From NCBI GenBank assembly GCA_016234495.1, contig JACRBI010000038.1, positions 144,242-208,241 on the forward strand: DNA of 64,000 bases, in the 5' to 3' direction. This document shows, one piece after another, positions 7,021-16,521 of the stretch. Numbering within the stretch: position 1 is the first letter of the stretch; every line of letters begins with the position of its first letter. The DNA is from Chloroflexota bacterium (lineage in GTDB: Bacteria > Chloroflexota > Anaerolineae > Anaerolineales > Villigracilaceae). The notes under the pieces were generated by a model. That model was not told where the DNA came from and did no database searches. It saw only the letters and a list, made by a program, of their open reading frames with translations. The translations under genes and the position numbers were made by a program.

Positions 7021-7794
7021 ATGTCCACAGTCACAACACATGCTCTTCCAAAACCAAAACAAACCATCTTCCAATGGATTGGCAATCATTGGTTTGAGGC
7101 TTTCCTGATCGTGTATGGCTTGTGGGTACTTACCCCTTTTCTTGCGCCCTTCTTTATGTATATTGGTTGGACTGGCGCGGGAAAAGCGATTTACTTCATT
7201 TATTCATTTTTCTGTCACCAACTGCCAGAGCGTTCCTTTTTTCTCTTTGGCGAAAAGACCATGTATTCGTTGAGCGAAGTTCAAGCCGTATGGCAGGATA
7301 CGATGAATCCGCTCATCCTGCGCAAATTTATTGGCAATGAAACAATGGGTTGGAAGGTCGCCTGGTCGGATAGAATGATCTCGTTTTATACCAGCGTTTG
7401 GTTCTTTGCGTTACTCTGGTATCCTATGCGCCGCAAAATTAAACCTATTACATGGTGGGGTTTCATAGTCATCCTACTGCCTCTCGCATTGGATGGCGGC
7501 ACACATGCAGTCAGCGACTTCGCTGGCATCGGACAGGGATTCCGTGATACAAATGCATGGTTGGCTGTGTTGACGAACAATGTATTACCCGCGACATTCT
7601 ATGCTGGCGACGCGCTCGGTTCGTTCAACTCCATCATGCGCTTCATCACTGGACTATTGGCTGGGCTTGGCATTGTCTGGCTCGCCTTCCCATATATTTT
7701 CCAGACACAAGCCTATAATCAAAAACTGGATGAGATAAGTTATGCCAAAGTCATCGAACAAATCAAAAACCAAAATCCGCATTCTTCTGGCTGA
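7021..7794 (+). CDS. DUF2085 polytopic membrane protein
   Basis: A 257-residue membrane protein with about five hydrophobic segments. The signature CHQLPERSFFLFG after the second helix is typical of DUF2085. Function unknown in the family. GAGGCAAGA precedes the ATG. The 3' end overlaps the response-regulator gene by 53 bases, which is long and suggests coupled translation. Its place between DUF3105 and the two-component system is the only functional hint. Confidence 0.8.
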   Translation: MSTVTTHALPKPKQTIFQWIGNHWFEAFLIVYGLWVLTPFLAPFFMYIGWTGAGKAIYFIYSFFCHQLPERSFFLFGEKTMYSLSEVQAVWQDTMNPLILRKFIGNETMGWKVAWSDRMISFYTSVWFFALLWYPMRRKIKPITWWGFIVILLPLALDGGTHAVSDFAGIGQGFRDTNAWLAVLTNNVLPATFYAGDALGSFNSIMRFITGLLAGLGIVWLAFPYIFQTQAYNQKLDEISYAKVIEQIKNQNPHSSG

Positions 7795-8434
7795 CGATCA
7801 CCACATCGTCCGCGCGGGTGTGCGTCAACTCCTTGAGAGCGCGAAAGACCTCGAGGTCATTGCCGAAGCGGGGGATGGCGAAGAAGCCCAAGCACTCATC
7901 CAGAAACACAAACCTGATGTTGCCGTCCTGGATATCCAAATGCCCAAAGCCAGCGGAATTGAAGTGACCCGTTGGGTGCGCGCGCACCTGCCCGAAGTGG
8001 GAGTTTTGATCCTCACTGCATATGATGACGATCCGTATGTGATGGCAGTCCTGCAAGCAGGCGCGAATGGATATGTGCTCAAGACGGCACAAGCCGACGA
8101 CCTCATTCAAGCCGTGCGCGATGTAAATGAAGGCAAGTCTGCGCTCGACCCAGCCATCACGCGCAAATTAATGTCCAATATCTTCAAAGGAACAGAAAAG
8201 AAAATCGTTGAGCCGCTGACAGATCGTGAACTGGATGTTCTTCGTCTTGCCGCAAAAGGCTTCACCAATAAAGCCATCGGTGTCCAACTCTCAATCAGTG
8301 ACCGTACCGTGCAGGGACACCTCGCACATATCTTCGCCAAATTGCAAGCCAACAGCCGCACCGAAGCTGTCATGCGTGCCGTTTCATTGGGATTGATTTC
8401 TCAAAGCTCGGGCAATATCGTTGAAGAAGAATGA
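7742..8434 (+). CDS. NarL/LuxR-family response regulator
   Basis: A 230-residue response regulator: receiver domain at residues 12-130 with the DDHH acidic pocket, phosphoacceptor Asp in VAVLDIQMP and Lys in YVLKTA, then a LuxR-type helix-turn-helix (LTDRELDVLRLAAKGFTNKAIG...SDRTVQGHLAHIFAKL). It binds DNA as a dimer when phosphorylated. The cognate kinase follows with an ATGA overlap. It lies in the run of genes behind composite promoter site 4, so it may be autoregulated, and it is one of two candidates for the protein that reads the regulon palindrome. Confidence 0.93.
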   Translation: MPKSSNKSKTKIRILLADDHHIVRAGVRQLLESAKDLEVIAEAGDGEEAQALIQKHKPDVAVLDIQMPKASGIEVTRWVRAHLPEVGVLILTAYDDDPYVMAVLQAGANGYVLKTAQADDLIQAVRDVNEGKSALDPAITRKLMSNIFKGTEKKIVEPLTDRELDVLRLAAKGFTNKAIGVQLSISDRTVQGHLAHIFAKLQANSRTEAVMRAVSLGLISQSSGNIVEEE

Positions 8435-10125
8435 AACGTTTCGTCCCTGGCTGGCGCGGTCTCACCCAACTATTTGCATTCACCATTCTGCCGCTTACGC
8501 TTTTACTACTCGTGATCGCATTCGGCGGCGTCAACATGCATCAGCAGGATATGCGCGCCCTCGTCGGGGAACGCGATGAGCGTGCGGTTCAATCTTCCGC
8601 CGCTGCGCTTGAATCTGAATTACATCACCGCATTGCCACCATTACCAGCATGGCTGTGTTGTCTTCCGAGGATTTAACCTTTGATGAAATCTTTGCCACC
8701 ACAAATGACCTCGCTGAGGACTTCAATGGCGAAATGGCTTTCCTTGATTCCGATGGGGGCTTACTTGCCAATACAGGCAATGAGAGTTTTTGGACATGGG
8801 TTTCCCAAAACGCGCAAAGCCTGTCTCTCGCTTCTCCTTCGGACCGTGAGCCTGTTTTCTCCACCCCAATCCTTGACCCCAACTCAAAGCGACTTTTTGT
8901 CATCGTTTCAGCATATTCCGCCTCTCGCGATGTGATTGTAGCGGGCGCGTTTTCACCTGAAACACTTGCCGCTGAAACCCTCTCAACCACCTACCCCACA
9001 GGTAGTCATGTAACGATCTACCTGCTGGACGAATCGCGCCGACTGCTTTTCGTCAGCGGGGCACTCGCGCAGGACAGATTGGAATCAGACCATCCAGGTG
9101 TGACGGAGGCATTACAAGGGCAAAGCGGAGTTTTGTATGTCAAGAAGGATAAGACCGAACATGTTGTTGCCTATAGTCCAATCGAATCGACAGGCTGGGC
9201 GCTGATCACAGAAGAAGAATGGGAAATGGTGGTTAGTCCATCGTTGCAGTTAACCCAAATGGCTCCGCTTGTGATGGTGCCTGCTTTCATCCTCGCACTA
9301 ATCGCATTATGGTTTGGCGCGAAGCAAATTGTTCAACCTCTGCAGAGACTTGAATCCAAAGCCGCTGCGCTGGCATGGGGTGACTTTAATGCGATCAAGG
9401 AATCAGTCGGCGGAATTTCGGAAGTGCAACATCTGCAATTAGAATTGACCGAAATGTCCCGTAAGGTGCAAGCCGCTCAAAACGGACTGCACGACTACAT
9501 CGGCGCGATCACCTCTGCGCAGGAAGATGAACGCATGCGGCTGGCGCGTGAATTGCATGATGACACAATCCAAGCCGTTATCGCGCTCAAACAACGGGTG
9601 CAACTCGCGCAGAAATCCGTCAAGGACCAGCATGGACGTCAGTCACTAAATGAGCTAGAAACTCTGGCCGAACAAACTATTGAAAATCTTCGCCGACTAA
9701 CGCGAGCTTTGCGTCCCATCTACCTTGAAGATCTGGGGCTTGTTACCGCACTCGAAATGCTGACACGTGAAACCAGCCAAAATAATCATTTGGTTGTGGA
9801 TTTTCAAAAAACAGGAGAGGAGCGCCGCCTCACACGCGAAGTGGAGTTATCACTTTATCGTATCGCACAGGAGGCGCTCAATAATGTAGTCAAACATTCC
9901 AAAGCCACCCATGCAGATTTGAAAATTGTGTTTGACACATCGGAAATCAAAATGGAAGTGAGTGACAACGGCAGCGGATTCATGGTGCCAAAAAGTCCCA
10001 CCGAATTTGCTCCCAATGGGCATTTCGGTTTGATGGGAATGCATGAACGCGCCGACCTGATCGGTGCGCGGCTAGAGATAGAATCCGCTTTGGGAAAGGG
10101 AACCAGGCTGATGGTCCGATTATGA
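8431..10125 (+). CDS. NarL-type sensor histidine kinase
   Basis: A 564-residue membrane kinase. A first helix at about residues 12-32, an extracytoplasmic sensing region of about 230 residues (cache-like), a second helix near 280-300, a HAMP linker, then a HisKA_3 dimerisation domain with phospho-His in ERMRLARELHDDTIQ and a HATPase with LYRIAQEALNNVVKH and DNGSGF. The sensor region has no obvious Cys/His cluster, so its signal cannot be predicted from sequence. Pairs with the upstream NarL-type regulator and is followed by a strong terminator. Confidence 0.93.
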   Translation: MKRFVPGWRGLTQLFAFTILPLTLLLLVIAFGGVNMHQQDMRALVGERDERAVQSSAAALESELHHRIATITSMAVLSSEDLTFDEIFATTNDLAEDFNGEMAFLDSDGGLLANTGNESFWTWVSQNAQSLSLASPSDREPVFSTPILDPNSKRLFVIVSAYSASRDVIVAGAFSPETLAAETLSTTYPTGSHVTIYLLDESRRLLFVSGALAQDRLESDHPGVTEALQGQSGVLYVKKDKTEHVVAYSPIESTGWALITEEEWEMVVSPSLQLTQMAPLVMVPAFILALIALWFGAKQIVQPLQRLESKAAALAWGDFNAIKESVGGISEVQHLQLELTEMSRKVQAAQNGLHDYIGAITSAQEDERMRLARELHDDTIQAVIALKQRVQLAQKSVKDQHGRQSLNELETLAEQTIENLRRLTRALRPIYLEDLGLVTALEMLTRETSQNNHLVVDFQKTGEERRLTREVELSLYRIAQEALNNVVKHSKATHADLKIVFDTSEIKMEVSDNGSGFMVPKSPTEFAPNGHFGLMGMHERADLIGARLEIESALGKGTRLMVRL

Positions 10126-10138
10126 AGCGATAAACGTC

Positions 10139-10207
10139 ATAAGCCGTTTTGCTTATCTACATCCCCGCCATTCTGCGCTCATGCAGGGGCGGGGTTTTGC
10201 TTATGAT
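10139..10207 (+). promoter_or_regulatory. composite metal-regulon promoter, site 5
   Basis: Palindrome ATAAGCCGTTTTGCTTAT at 10139-10156, TGCGCT at 10174 (offset 35), -10 TATGAT at 10202 (offset 63). The kinase terminator lies inside the same stretch. Drives the thiol-redox cassette. Confidence 0.8.
10163..10198 (+). terminator. rho-independent terminator of the two-component operon
   Basis: CCCCGCC ... GGCGGGG stem followed by TTTTG. It overlaps the promoter of the next operon. Confidence 0.8.
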
Positions 10208-10237
10208 GTATCCATCTCAATTTAGGCAGGCAGGCTT

Positions 10238-10999
10238 ATGACATCTGAAACCACAGGCACACTCGTCCCATCCCAAACTGAAAGATTGAAAATCTTTTTG
10301 CACGCGTTTCTATTCGTCCTCGGTTTTTCTTTGGTCTTTATTGTTGGCTGGGGCGGTTCGGTCACAGCACTCGGTCAACTATTTGGCACATATAAACGAG
10401 TCATCGCGCAAATTGGCGGTGTGATAGTGATCATGTTTGGATTGGCGACTCTGGAAGTGATTCGCATTCCCTGGTTTTATGCGGATACGCGCGCCCAATA
10501 CTCGGGTCAACGCGGGACGTATGGCGGGTCTGCCCTCATGGGCATTTTCTTCGCCGCAGGCTGGAGCCCATGCATTGGAGCAACCCTGGGTGCGATCCTG
10601 ACAATGGGTCTCAGCCAGCAAACTGTTGGACAGGCGATGTGGTTATCCTCTGGTTACTCGCTCGGGTTGGGAATTCCGTTTCTCGCAATGGCGCTTGGAC
10701 TGGAACGTGCTTCTGGCTGGCTCAAACGAATGAGACCCTATCAGAAATATTTCAAGATCGCCAGTGGCGTGTTCATCATTGCGATCGGCGTCTTGTTACT
10801 GACGAACACCATGAGCCTGATTGCGATCTGGGCATTCAAAAATGGTTACTTCATCGAGTCTTTCGCCGCTTATGCCGCCGCGCCGACTTATCTAACGGCC
10901 ATACTCGCAGGCTTGTTATCCTTTCTTTCGCCATGTGTGTTACCGCTCGTGCCCGCGTATCTCGGGTATTTGAGTGGACATACCATGCAAAAGGCATAA
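10238..10999 (+). CDS. ccdA: CcdA-like thiol-electron transporter, circularly permuted
   Basis: A 253-residue membrane protein of the CcdA/DsbD-beta family, which carries reducing electrons from cytoplasmic thioredoxin to extracytoplasmic thiols. The two conserved cysteine motifs are present but in the reverse of the usual order: GWSPCIGATLGAIL lies at about residues 108-121 and SFLSPCVLPLVPAYLGYLSG, which is normally the first helix, forms the C-terminus (about residues 228-247). The protein opens with the segment that usually follows the first helix (HAFLFVLGFSLVF). Upstream lies only the promoter, so no first helix has been missed. The following genes are DsbA-like, rhodanese and TlpA, its natural partners. 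Confidence 0.85.
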   Translation: MTSETTGTLVPSQTERLKIFLHAFLFVLGFSLVFIVGWGGSVTALGQLFGTYKRVIAQIGGVIVIMFGLATLEVIRIPWFYADTRAQYSGQRGTYGGSALMGIFFAAGWSPCIGATLGAILTMGLSQQTVGQAMWLSSGYSLGLGIPFLAMALGLERASGWLKRMRPYQKYFKIASGVFIIAIGVLLLTNTMSLIAIWAFKNGYFIESFAAYAAAPTYLTAILAGLLSFLSPCVLPLVPAYLGYLSGHTMQKA

Positions 11000-11020: not shown

Positions 11021-11752
11021 ATGGAATCTACATCCGACTCAGAAGATACGATTACCTTCAAACGCACCCACTTTTATTCGGTATTGGTGGTGCTGGCTTT
11101 TGCAGTTGGGATACTTACTGGATATGTCGTTTGGGGACGTACATCCGTTCAAGAGCAAACAGCGGCACAAGCGCCTATTGCTGAAGTACCTGCGGCAACC
11201 CAGCCGCCCCAATTCACTCGCTATGATATTCCTGCGGATGGTTTCCCAGGCATTGGACCAGAGGATGCGCCCATAGTGATCGTTGAATTTAGCGATTTCC
11301 AATGCCCATTCTGCAAACGCTTCCAGGACGAGACCGCAAAGCAATTGCTGGCGGCCTACCCTGGCAAGATCCGTTTTGTCTATCGCCACCTGCCATTGAC
11401 CTCCATTCACCCCGAAGCGTTCCCCTCGGCAGAAGCCTCCATGTGTGCCAATGAGCAAAATGCCTTCTGGGAATACCACGACAAGATATTCGAGAACCAA
11501 GACAAACTGGGTCGCGAACTTTATATGCAAATTGCAAGTGACCTCAACTTGGGTGTGACGGCATTTGAAAATTGTTTGAACACGGGAAAATACAAGGATT
11601 TAGTTCAACAAGATTCGGATTTTGCCATTAATCTGGGAGTGCAATCCACGCCTACTTTTTTCATCAACGGACTGGCATTGGTCGGCGCACAACCACTTGA
11701 AGCGTTCAAGCAGGTAATTGACAAGGAACTGGCGGGGGAAATCCCGAAGTAG
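11021..11752 (+). CDS. membrane-anchored DsbA-like thioredoxin-fold protein
   Basis: A 243-residue protein with one N-terminal membrane helix (about residues 20-43), a Pro/Ala linker and a DsbA/DsbG-type thioredoxin domain (Thioredoxin_4). The redox site is CPFC in EFSDFQCPFCKRFQ, and the cis-proline loop is STPTFFING. It would catalyse disulfide formation or isomerisation outside the membrane. It lies 21 bases after the CcdA-like gene, whose electrons it may receive, and upstream of a rhodanese lipoprotein. Confidence 0.9.
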   Translation: MESTSDSEDTITFKRTHFYSVLVVLAFAVGILTGYVVWGRTSVQEQTAAQAPIAEVPAATQPPQFTRYDIPADGFPGIGPEDAPIVIVEFSDFQCPFCKRFQDETAKQLLAAYPGKIRFVYRHLPLTSIHPEAFPSAEASMCANEQNAFWEYHDKIFENQDKLGRELYMQIASDLNLGVTAFENCLNTGKYKDLVQQDSDFAINLGVQSTPTFFINGLALVGAQPLEAFKQVIDKELAGEIPK

Positions 11753-11773: not shown

Positions 11774-12196
11774 ATGAAGCAAATATTATTGCTATCGGTA
11801 TTCGTTGTGGTTGTACTGGCAGCCTGTCAGAGCAAGCCTGCGGAAATCGCTGGAGAAAAGATTGCTGTAGAAGGCGGTACTTATATTAGCGTGAATGCGG
11901 ATGAATTAAACACGATGATGAAGAACAAGGACTTCGTGTTTATCAACGTTCACACACCTTTTGCAGGGAATATCACTGGCACAGATTTGTCCATTGCCTA
12001 TGATCAAATCATCGACCCCGCCAATCTCGAGCAACTGCCTGCCGATAAAAGCGCAAAGATTGTTTTGTATTGCCGTAGCGGACGAATGAGCGCCATTGCC
12101 GCAGAGGCATTGGTTAAGAAAGGGTATACGAATATTTGGGATCTTGCAGGCGGTATGGTGGATTGGGAACAGGCTGGCTTCAACTTGGAAAAATAA
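11774..12196 (+). CDS. rhodanese-domain lipoprotein, copy 1
   Basis: A 140-residue lipoprotein (lipobox LAACQ) with a single rhodanese domain. The active-site loop is YCRSGRMS, with the persulfide-forming Cys; the end GYTNIWDLAGGMVDWE is typical of the family. An extracytoplasmic persulfide carrier or thiol-transfer role in the redox cassette is inferred. The related lipoprotein at 61139 has a similar N-terminal half (FVFINVHTPFAG versus FTMINVHTPWEG). A GAAGGAG ribosome-binding site precedes the start. Confidence 0.88.
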   Translation: MKQILLLSVFVVVVLAACQSKPAEIAGEKIAVEGGTYISVNADELNTMMKNKDFVFINVHTPFAGNITGTDLSIAYDQIIDPANLEQLPADKSAKIVLYCRSGRMSAIAAEALVKKGYTNIWDLAGGMVDWEQAGFNLEK

Positions 12197-12210: not shown

Positions 12211-12783
12211 ATGATGACACAAGTCGTAGAAAATCCACGTCGCGGCGTTTCGTTATGGGTCCAGATCCTTGTTTGGACTCTTCTTACTGGCTTGCTGATT
12301 CTTGTCGGAACTGGCTTGGCGCGTGCGCGGCAGGGAACCATTCAGCCTGGAGATGAGGTTCCTGATTTCAGTCTTATGTTGTACAGCGGCTATGAATACA
12401 ACGATCAATCAGAGGTGAAAATTTCAAATTTACGCGGTAAGGTAGTATTCATTAACTTTTGGGCTTCTTGGTGCAAGCCTTGTGAGCAGGAGGCCGCCGC
12501 TTTGGAGCAGGCCTGGGAATATTATCAGCCCAGCGGCAAGGTGGTTTTCCTGGGGATAGATTATGTGGATACTGAAATTCCAGCACGCGCCTTCCTCAAA
12601 AAATTCAACAACACCTATCCCAACGGGCCGGACATACGCACAGAAATCTCCCAGATGTTCCGAATCAAGGGTGTGCCCGAAACATATATCATTGACACCA
12701 ACGGCATCCTCAATTATGTCAAAATTGGACCCTTTCTAAATGTGGATGAGATCAAAACAATAATTGACCCTTTACTCCAATAA
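12211..12783 (+). CDS. TlpA/ResA-type thioredoxin, membrane-anchored, copy 1
   Basis: About 190 residues: one N-terminal membrane helix, then an AhpC/TSA-like thioredoxin domain with redox motif WASWCKPCEQE and the cis-Pro loop GVPETYIID. Such proteins reduce disulfides outside the membrane, for example in cytochrome c or CuA assembly, receiving electrons from CcdA. The track start at 12136 overlaps the rhodanese gene; the ATG at 12211 is preferred because GAAGAGGAA lies upstream. A composite regulon promoter begins at its stop codon. Confidence 0.9.
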   Translation: MMTQVVENPRRGVSLWVQILVWTLLTGLLILVGTGLARARQGTIQPGDEVPDFSLMLYSGYEYNDQSEVKISNLRGKVVFINFWASWCKPCEQEAAALEQAWEYYQPSGKVVFLGIDYVDTEIPARAFLKKFNNTYPNGPDIRTEISQMFRIKGVPETYIIDTNGILNYVKIGPFLNVDEIKTIIDPLLQ

Positions 12784-12873: not shown

Positions 12874-13053
12874 ATGACAACTACCGTACACGATCCCGTC
12901 TGTCACATGGACATTGATCCCGCCACCGCCGCTGGCACGTCCGAATACAATGGACAGACCTATTACTTCTGCTCGCTTGGCTGTAAGAAGTCTTTTGATA
13001 AAGAGCCTGAAAAATATTTAGGTAAAACTGACGAACACGCACACCAGCACTAA
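12874..13053 (+). CDS. small YHS-domain protein (not in ORF track)
   Basis: A 59-residue protein too short for the supplied track. It is a single YHS domain: HDPVCHMDIDP at the start, TYYFCSLGCKKSF at the end, and a His-rich tail (DEHAHQH). AAAGGAGATAACCT precedes the ATG, and a strong terminator follows within 20 bases, so it is a monocistronic unit behind composite promoter site 6. Likely a small cytoplasmic copper or zinc binding protein. Confidence 0.88.
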   Translation: MTTTVHDPVCHMDIDPATAAGTSEYNGQTYYFCSLGCKKSFDKEPEKYLGKTDEHAHQH

Positions 13054-13884: not shown

Positions 13885-16521
13885 ATGACTCAACGCGACC
13901 CAGTTTGTGGAATGGAAATCGATCTCCAGAGCGCTCTTGCCAAACGCGAGCACATGGGGCAGACATTTTATTTTTGCTCGCAATCCTGTGTGGATCAATT
14001 CGACAAAGACCCACACCGTTATGTGATGACGTCTGCGACAACAGGTTTCAACCCTGAGCAGACTCTTTCCCGCATCGAACTGCCCGTTGCAGACCTGCCT
14101 ATGGTCAGACCTGCGACAAAGCTTGAAGCAGGTTTGCTATCCCTGAACGGAGTGGATCGGGTGACCGTGAATGCAGGGGCAGGTTTGGTGCAGCTCGATT
14201 ATGATCCGCAAAAAATCAATCTCGTCGGGCTGGCTGGCGCCATCCGATCCGCTGGCTATACCGTTGATGGTGCACAGACACGCATTGGCATTGAGAATCT
14301 CCGTTGCGCCTCATGCGTCAACTTTATTGAAGACGAATTGAAATCCACGCCAGGCGTTTTGAACGCAACTGTCAACATTGCCACGCAGGAAGCGTCGGTG
14401 GATTATCTTCCACAAAACACAACGCTTGCAGATTTGAACAAAGCCATTGAGACCTGGGGCTACAAACCGCGCCCCGCGTTGAGCGATGCACCCATAGACA
14501 AACAGGAAGAGGCTCATGCTCGCGAATACAGCCGCTTGATGAAAATGTTCTGGTTTGCGGCGATTATTTCAGTGCCTGTATTGTTGTTTGCGTACCCGCA
14601 ATACGTGCCATTGATCCGTGATCTATCAATGGAGACAATCCGATGGTCATGGGTGCTTTCTGCGATTGTGACTCTTCCCGTACTGTTCTATTCAGGCTAT
14701 GACTTTTTCACGGGCGCATGGGCGGCGTTCAAACATCGCTCGGCAAACATGAACACGCTGATTGCATTAGGGACAGGCGCGGCATGGTTGTATTCAACAT
14801 TTGCAGTTGCATTCCCTGCCGTTTTTCCCGAAGGCACATCGGAACCCTTTTATGATGTCGTTGCTGTGGTGATTGCATTGGTTGTGCTGGGACAAGCGCT
14901 TGAACTGCGCGCCAAGGGACAATCCAGTTCGGCAATTAAAAAGTTGTTGGGTTTGCAAGCCAAGACCGCACGCGTGATTCGCGATAGCAAAGAAATGGAC
15001 ATTCCCGTTGAAGAAGTGTTGGTCGGTGATGTGATCCAGGTGCGCCCTGGCGAGAAAATACCCGTGGACGGAATCATCGTCGAAGGCAGTTCCGCAGTGG
15101 ACGAGTCCATGCTGACAGGCGAGTCATTGCCCGCATCCAAAAAGATGGGCGATGAAGTTATCGGCGCGACGATCAATAAGACGGGCGCGTTCAAATTCCG
15201 TACAACGAAAGTTGGTAAAGATACCGCGCTGGCGCAAATCGTCAAGATGGTGCAGGACGCACAGAACTCAAAAGCGCCAATTGCACGTCTTGCCGATACC
15301 GTATCTGGTTACTTCGTTCCCATCGTGATGATCCTGGCTGTGTGGACTTTCGTCATATGGTTCGTGATTGGACCGCAACCTCAACTCGTTTATGCGCTGG
15401 TCACAAGCGTGACCGTGCTGATCATCGCATGCCCATGTGCGCTGGGACTTGCCACGCCAATGAGTTTGATGGTTGGCATCGGCAAAGGCGCGGAAAATGG
15501 AATTCTCATCCGCTCTGGTGAAGCGCTTCAAACGGCACGTGCGATTCAAACCGTGGTGTTGGATAAGACAGGCACAATCACAAAAGGCAAGCCTGAATTA
15601 ACAGACGTCCTAATCAGCGACCAGCCAATCGTGAAAGATGATGAACTATTGAGATTAGCTTCGTCCGTTGAAAAAGTCAGCGAACATCCGTTGGCACAGG
15701 CAATTGTTGAAGGTGCGCAGGCGCGCAAATTGGAACTGGCGGAAGTACAAGACTTTGATGCCATTCCTGGTCACGGTGTTTCAGCCAAAGTCGAAGGACG
15801 TAGCATATTGATTGGCAACCTCAAGTTGATGAACCGCGAAAATATTGCTCTCGGCTCGCTGGAAGAAAAATCAAAATCCCTTGCAGATGATGGCAAGACA
15901 CCGATGTTTATCGCGCTGGATGGCAAAGCCGCAGGCATCATTGCAGTGGCAGATACAGTCAAGGAAGATTCTGCCGAAGCGATCAAAGCTTTGCAAAGTA
16001 TGGGCATCGAAGTGGTCATGATCACGGGTGATAACCGCCGCACTGCCGAAGCGATTGCGCGCAGGGTTGGCGTAACACGTGTGCTGGCGGAAGTGTTGCC
16101 AGAAGATAAAGCAAATAATATTCAATTGTTACAGGCAGAAGGCAAGAAGGTCGCGATGGTTGGCGATGGCATCAATGACGCGCCCGCACTTGCGCAAGCG
16201 GATGTCGGTCTCGCCATTGGCACAGGCACGGACGTTGCAATTGAAGCCTCCGATATCACGCTTATCAAAGGTAGCCTCAAAGGTGTAGTCACTGCCATCG
16301 AAGTCAGCCGCGCCACGATGACCAACATTTACCAAAACCTGGTCGGTGCATTTTTCTATAACGTATTGGGTGTGCCAGTCGCAATGGGATTGCTTTTCCC
16401 CTTCTTCGGCCTGTTACTCAGTCCGCTAATCGCGGGCGCAGCGATGGCGTTTTCATCTGTGACAGTGGTTGGAAATGCCAATCGTCTGCGAGGCTTTAAG
16501 CCAAAATTCAGTGTGAAATAG
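13885..16521 (+). CDS. copA: Cu(I)-exporting P1B-type ATPase with N-terminal YHS domain
   Basis: An 878-residue metal pump. Order: YHS domain (residues 4-45, DPVCGMEID...FYFCSQSC), a degenerate HMA-like domain lacking CxxC (about 60-128), an HMA domain with CASC (about 132-195), then eight helices with the Cu(I)-specific CPC motif ([13 protein letters not shown]), phosphorylation site DKTGT, EHPLAQA nucleotide-binding motif, TGDN and [14 protein letters not shown]. It exports Cu(I) from the cytoplasm. The fused YHS domain is an extra metal-binding module. The start follows AAGGTAGGT. A cupredoxin gene follows by 9 bases, so exported copper may be handed on. Confidence 0.95.

Follow-up and report, generated by a model that had tools for sequence, protein, structure and literature searches.

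What is one to make of a CcdA-like gene whose product carries every expected helix, but not in the expected order? The question arises in the window (the whole 64,000-nucleotide stretch of Chloroflexota DNA analysed here), where the 253-residue product of an open reading frame presents its helices as TM2-TM3-TM4(GWSPCIG)-TM5-TM6-TM1(LSPCVLPLVPAY). Its cysteine motifs occupy residues 108-114 (GWSPCIG, with Cys112) and 228-247 (SFLSPCVLPLVPAYLGYLSG, with Cys233), and only short tails lie outside the six helices, with no extra periplasmic domains of the kind found in ScsB or DsbD. CcdA (PF02683; PDB 5VKV), a proposed elevator-type electron transporter, shares all six helices and both cysteine motifs with this protein; the difference lies in TM1, which is C-terminal here and, in the predicted topology, tethered on the periplasmic rather than the cytoplasmic side, with both termini cytoplasmic. 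A sequence-only reading of the locus had placed the usual first helix at the C-terminus and proposed a circular permutation.

Table 1. The permuted ccdA gene, its helices and its neighbours, in window coordinates
Feature	Position	Strand	Residues	Remarks
LuxR-type response regulator	7742..8434	+		
NarX/UhpB-type sensor histidine kinase	8431..10125	+		
Conserved leader	10134..10205	+		palindrome ATAAGC-N6-GCTTAT, then CCCCGCC...GGCGGGG hairpin and T run
In-frame TAG stop ahead of permuted ccdA start	10223..10225	+		bars N-terminal extension in this frame
Permuted ccdA gene	10238..10999	+	253 aa	ATG start
Canonical TM2 equivalent	10295..10384	+	20-49	first helix of the permuted protein
Canonical TM3	10397..10459	+	54-74	
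Canonical TM4	10526..10609	+		GWSPCIG; Cys112 codon 10571-10573
Canonical TM5	10628..10696	+	131-153	
Canonical TM6	10745..10831	+	170-198	
New TM6-TM1 linker	10832..10882	+	199-215	predicted periplasmic; charge count, rotation scan
Canonical TM1, relocated to C-terminus	10883..10975	+	216-246	LSPCVLPLVPAY; Cys233 codon 10934-10936
DsbA-like thioredoxin-fold protein	11021..11752	+		N-terminal hydrophobic segment; candidate partner
Rhodanese-domain protein	11774..12196	+		lipoprotein-like N-terminus
TlpA/ResA-like thioredoxin-fold protein	12211..12783	+		candidate partner
YHS-domain protein	12874..13053	+		
CopA-like copper P-type ATPase	13885..16521	+		YHS and heavy-metal-associated domains

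Alignments place the first helix where that reading had put it. The Pfam DsbD_TM match scores 47.5 bits (cut-off 27.1) and pairs residues 13-189 with profile positions 38-216 of 219, and the first 37 positions, the TM1 part, are absent at the N-terminus. BLASTP with the canonical paralog in this genome yields two blocks that have traded places: query 14-196 pairs with subject 46-228 (44% identity over 184 aa, E 3e-35) and query 221-242 with subject 9-30 (77% over 22 aa, E 2e-7). The blocks are likewise exchanged relative to 5VKV, whose residues 6-35 correspond to profile positions 219-248 and residues 41-208 to positions 21-197. Both Cys-Pro motifs of CcdA/DsbD_TM are present, and the helices do not run from TM1 to TM6. 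With a test HMM built from 32 canonical CcdAs of Chloroflexota, native permuted proteins are hit as separate, swapped domains (for example, HMM 42-233 at residues 7-198 and HMM 7-43 at residues 216-252), and once they are rotated at the junction of TM6 and TM1 the score goes up in 73 of 94, with a median gain of 9 bits. Of nine members inspected, four show one joined domain after rotation; in the remaining five, all distant, the rotated match is still split, in two of them across a TM3-TM4 insertion. Rotating a single native protein in steps of five residues gave the highest score for cuts at residues 200-220, the TM6/TM1 linker. The proposed circular permutation is upheld in that a rotated sequence regains a single full-length CcdA match.

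A helix lost from the 5' end was considered as a candidate and rejected. The in-frame TAG lies five codons ahead of the ATG and rules out a missing N-terminal segment, several permuted homologs also have a stop one to five codons 5' of the start, and a tblastn search of the genome found no TM1-like piece 5' of the locus. The earlier reading had reached the same view on the ground that the upstream DNA is promoter. Its conclusion holds, but the ground needs correction: a pattern search detected no sigma-70-type promoter 5' of the permuted ccdA, and the sequence following the histidine kinase gene instead carries a conserved palindrome and a terminator-like hairpin. This leader, kept in 14 of 15 aligned sequences and found elsewhere in the genome only 5' of the second permuted paralog, is possibly an operator combined with a terminator or attenuator.

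Conservation extends over the whole protein. Neither the two catalytic cysteines nor the prolines beside them vary in 39 aligned permuted members, and the motifs SPC..PLVPAY and GW.PC.G are likewise invariant. Comparison with close homologs gives, wherever synonymous sites are unsaturated, a dN/dS of about 0.03-0.045 for TM2-6 and 0.00-0.04 for the relocated TM1; constraint is looser in the N-terminal tail (0.1-0.3), and in some pairs the linker is more variable. Strong purifying selection over TM2-6 and TM1 alike implies that the entire protein is a single selected unit, and the helix order is beyond chance because it is kept in 94 distinct homologs and because the moved helix itself is so constrained. 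As a separate observation, TM1 of Anaerolineae canonical CcdAs (L001, L023-L034, L135-L143) reads SPCVFSLVP or SPCVLALVP, with the proline after Cys-x-x replaced, whereas the permuted form retains SPCVLPLVP.

How far does this arrangement extend? The 94 distinct permuted proteins come from at least eight Chloroflexota families, usually from genomes that also encode a canonical paralog; the window's own genome encodes the permuted form twice (C21, that of the window, and C2) and the canonical form once (C29). What looked like a further piece of CcdA after the second paralog (L004) proved spurious, consisting of TM1 and the signal peptide of a rhodanese lipoprotein read through a stop. A search of related genomes for the same order, which the sequence-only reading had recommended, found it in many. 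In a tblastn survey of 60 relatives, full-length permuted homologs turned up in many members of the genus, though not in every one, and, at 62-63% identity, in three further families within the order; a canonical CcdA with its TM1 piece upstream is present in nearly all genomes. Scanning 85,462 species genomes with a pair of peptide patterns from proteins of the Anaerolineales type recovered 79 loci, 52-94% identical, permuted and full-length save for a few that are broken or cut off; with such patterns, distant permuted proteins elsewhere would lie beyond the reach of the scan. All 79 are from Chloroflexota except two loci (L104, L109) of a record titled Bacteroidetes, JAPUDW010000327.1. These were dismissed as evidence for another phylum: taxonomy groups the genome with Chloroflexota, the record is probably misnamed, and it belongs to the window's phylum since the genome sample from its phylum repeats genomes of the window's phylum. 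A 400-genome sample of the phylum added members in class-level families f16, f21, f23 and f25 and phylum-level families f47 and f86. Two of these (L130, L132) are longer between TM3 and TM4, by some 80 residues or more that are in part hydrophobic. As a caveat on the whole set, its sequences come in part from metagenome-assembled genomes. Other phyla were covered only by the genome scan for close relatives and by plasmids; among the best 40 of 368 plasmid matches, those from other phyla have canonical order only, and the matches stop at query residue 198-209 with no in-line C-terminal TM1. No permuted copy was found in viral contigs, where the sole relative is canonical.

The protein is therefore no lone oddity. 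The earlier reading had named a larger family with this order as grounds for refutation; such a family exists in Chloroflexota, and the permutation itself stands. Because canonical order is found in the same genomes, in plasmids of other phyla and in the solved structure, the family-wide order means that the permutation became fixed in a lineage, not that there was none.

CcdA consists of two inverted three-helix repeats and has an even number of helices, so that moving TM1 keeps the orientations and leaves the new termini in the cytoplasm. Mean counts of lysine plus arginine are 2.5 at the N-terminus, 3.5 in TM3-4 and 4.1 in TM5-6, against 0.03 in TM4-5 and 0.9 in TM6-1, a positive-inside pattern that fits canonical helix orientations, cytoplasmic termini and an external TM6-TM1 linker. 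An AlphaFold2 model from 39 sequences is of moderate quality (pLDDT 65.6, pTM 0.61); its best PDB match in Foldseek is again CcdA 5VKV (probability 1.00, E 7.6e-3, TM-score 0.39), and a BFVD fold search with it gave no match. Sequential comparison of structures cannot credit a permuted helix. The comparison with CcdA structures that had been suggested led to CcdA, but with a moderate model and this TM-score it does not establish that the fold is retained.

We propose that the cut would lie in the cytoplasmic TM1-TM2 loop and that the old ends would be rejoined via the periplasmic TM6-TM1 linker, shifting the repeat frame from (1-2-3)(4-5-6) to (2-3-4)(5-6-1), with each repeat closing on its cysteine helix, and transferring the TM1 tether from the cytoplasmic to the periplasmic side. 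Cys112 in TM4 and Cys233 in TM1 would probably still form a dithiol pair that accepts electrons from cytoplasmic thioredoxin and may hand them to periplasmic thioredoxin-fold neighbours, the DsbA-like and TlpA-like proteins and perhaps the rhodanese protein. That the elevator motion still works after permutation is an inference, as is electron transfer to the adjacent DsbA/TlpA; no biochemical data support the fold, topology, electron transfer, partner identity or copper-stress role of the permuted protein, all of which are inferred.

The surroundings of the gene bear on what it may be for. A copper ATPase lies in the flanks (up to 8 kb) of 35 of 59 permuted loci but of only 1 of 18 canonical loci drawn from the same and related genomes (Fisher p 4e-5, uncorrected for relatedness), and the permuted loci also have TlpA (26/59), rhodanese (18/59) and DsbA (15/59) genes as neighbours. 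While this cluster association is observed, the copper link is not universal, as no copper ATPase was seen in 24 of the 59 loci, some of them on short contigs. The association suggests that permuted CcdA may serve as a dedicated source of reductant under metal or thiol stress, much as in the ScsB-TlpA case, with the canonical copy in another role. Several neighbours deserve mention in their own right. A DUF2085 membrane protein gene occurs near canonical ccdA in 18 of 18 loci, mostly adjacent (L155-L174), in 18 of 59 permuted loci, and in the window at 7021-7794; its product is a candidate for an unrecognised CcdA partner. For the DsbA-like neighbour the nearest family is NF041057 (Rcas_1661 thioredoxin-like (seleno)lipoprotein), with a score of 146 bits that falls short of the 190-bit cut-off; the rhodanese neighbour is weakly similar to the rhodanese/DsbD fusion TsoB.

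Could the unusual order nevertheless be an accident, produced by misassembly or a frameshift, or by truncation of a canonical gene that was left without TM1 and picked up a C-terminal helix by chance? The window comes from a single MAG, and its Pfam match does lack the N-terminal part of the profile. Yet the same order recurs in 94 distinct proteins from many assemblies, a stop precedes the start in frame, and the C-terminal helix combines 77% identity to canonical TM1 over 22 aa with purifying selection; conservation of the order across independent genomes already refutes an accident, to which we give virtually no credence. Judged from sequence, the circular permutation of CcdA by one helix is genuine, stable and widespread. 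A change of function is harder to dismiss, though we think it unlikely: a permuted protein turned metal- or sulfur-related transporter or sensor, and no longer an electron shuttle, would suit the copper ATPase, YHS and rhodanese surroundings and the coexistence of a canonical CcdA in most genomes, and the best NCBIfam match, weak and far below its cut-off, is the ArsG transporter (NF040495, 34.4 of 200 bits; DsbD NF001419 reaches 21.6 of 330). Such a change sits poorly with redox cysteines and flanking prolines that are invariant in the aligned members and with thioredoxin-fold genes close by in many loci. We are thus largely confident that the protein is a natural CcdA permutant, probably acting as an electron shuttle to neighbouring thioredoxin-fold proteins in a copper/thiol-stress cluster, with the inferences about fold, topology, transfer, partners and copper-stress role set out above.

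A further rival concerns only the history of the permutation. In a tree of 62 permuted (rotated) and canonical proteins over about 260 columns, the permuted order needs at least four changes, a single change suffices in 0% of bootstrap trees, and an AU test rejects a single permuted clade (p = 0.0066). Members of the Anaerolineales type fall into one group with good support (99/98), and support is lower once f23 is included (94/53). These results suggest that the permuted order may have arisen more than once, but long branches and the small number of columns leave the number of origins uncertain. The alternative, a single origin in Chloroflexota with the scatter in the tree as long-branch noise, is quite possible, if not our preference: the cut point is identical in all permuted groups and the distant groups sit on long branches, and it is the tree, short as its alignment is, that speaks against it. 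No intermediate with TM1 at both ends emerged when 118 loci carrying permuted open reading frames were scanned for motifs. For VKOR and DsbB, membrane thiol-redox proteins that are related by circular permutation of helix order and were described as the first alpha-helical membrane case, the proposed route is a tandem duplication whose outer parts were then lost (PMC4555120). The same route for CcdA is an inference.

We found no earlier report of a permuted CcdA or DsbD in the literature searched. The Scs system has been linked to copper, and its ScsB protein keeps the canonical order of helices and bears a large periplasmic domain at the N-terminus; permuted CcdA, in contrast, is a membrane domain only. 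Like ScsB with ScsC/ScsD or TlpA, the permuted CcdA locus joins a DsbD-type hub to candidate DsbA-like and TlpA-like partners; electron flow from ScsB to TlpA has been summarised (PMC5403849). VKOR and DsbB are four-helix, quinone-linked oxidases with very distant sequences, whereas in the present case it is the reductase CcdA that has undergone permutation, and the result is close in sequence to the unpermuted form of the same genome.

Natural circular permutation is rarely documented in multi-helix membrane proteins, VKOR/DsbB being the precedent found, and profile-based annotation misreads the permuted proteins as N-terminally truncated CcdA. One genome that encodes both the permuted and the canonical form, at 44% identity over TM2-6, amounts to a natural experiment that bears on the folding of inverted-repeat membrane proteins, on the side from which a cysteine helix must be tethered in a proposed elevator and on how permutation happens. 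That the same one-helix permutation arose repeatedly in Chloroflexota and that permuted CcdA is a separate copper/thiol-stress shuttle beside a housekeeping canonical CcdA is, taken together, a conjecture we would sooner doubt than defend; if both parts were true, pseudo-symmetric membrane proteins would be able to shift their repeat frame repeatedly in nature.
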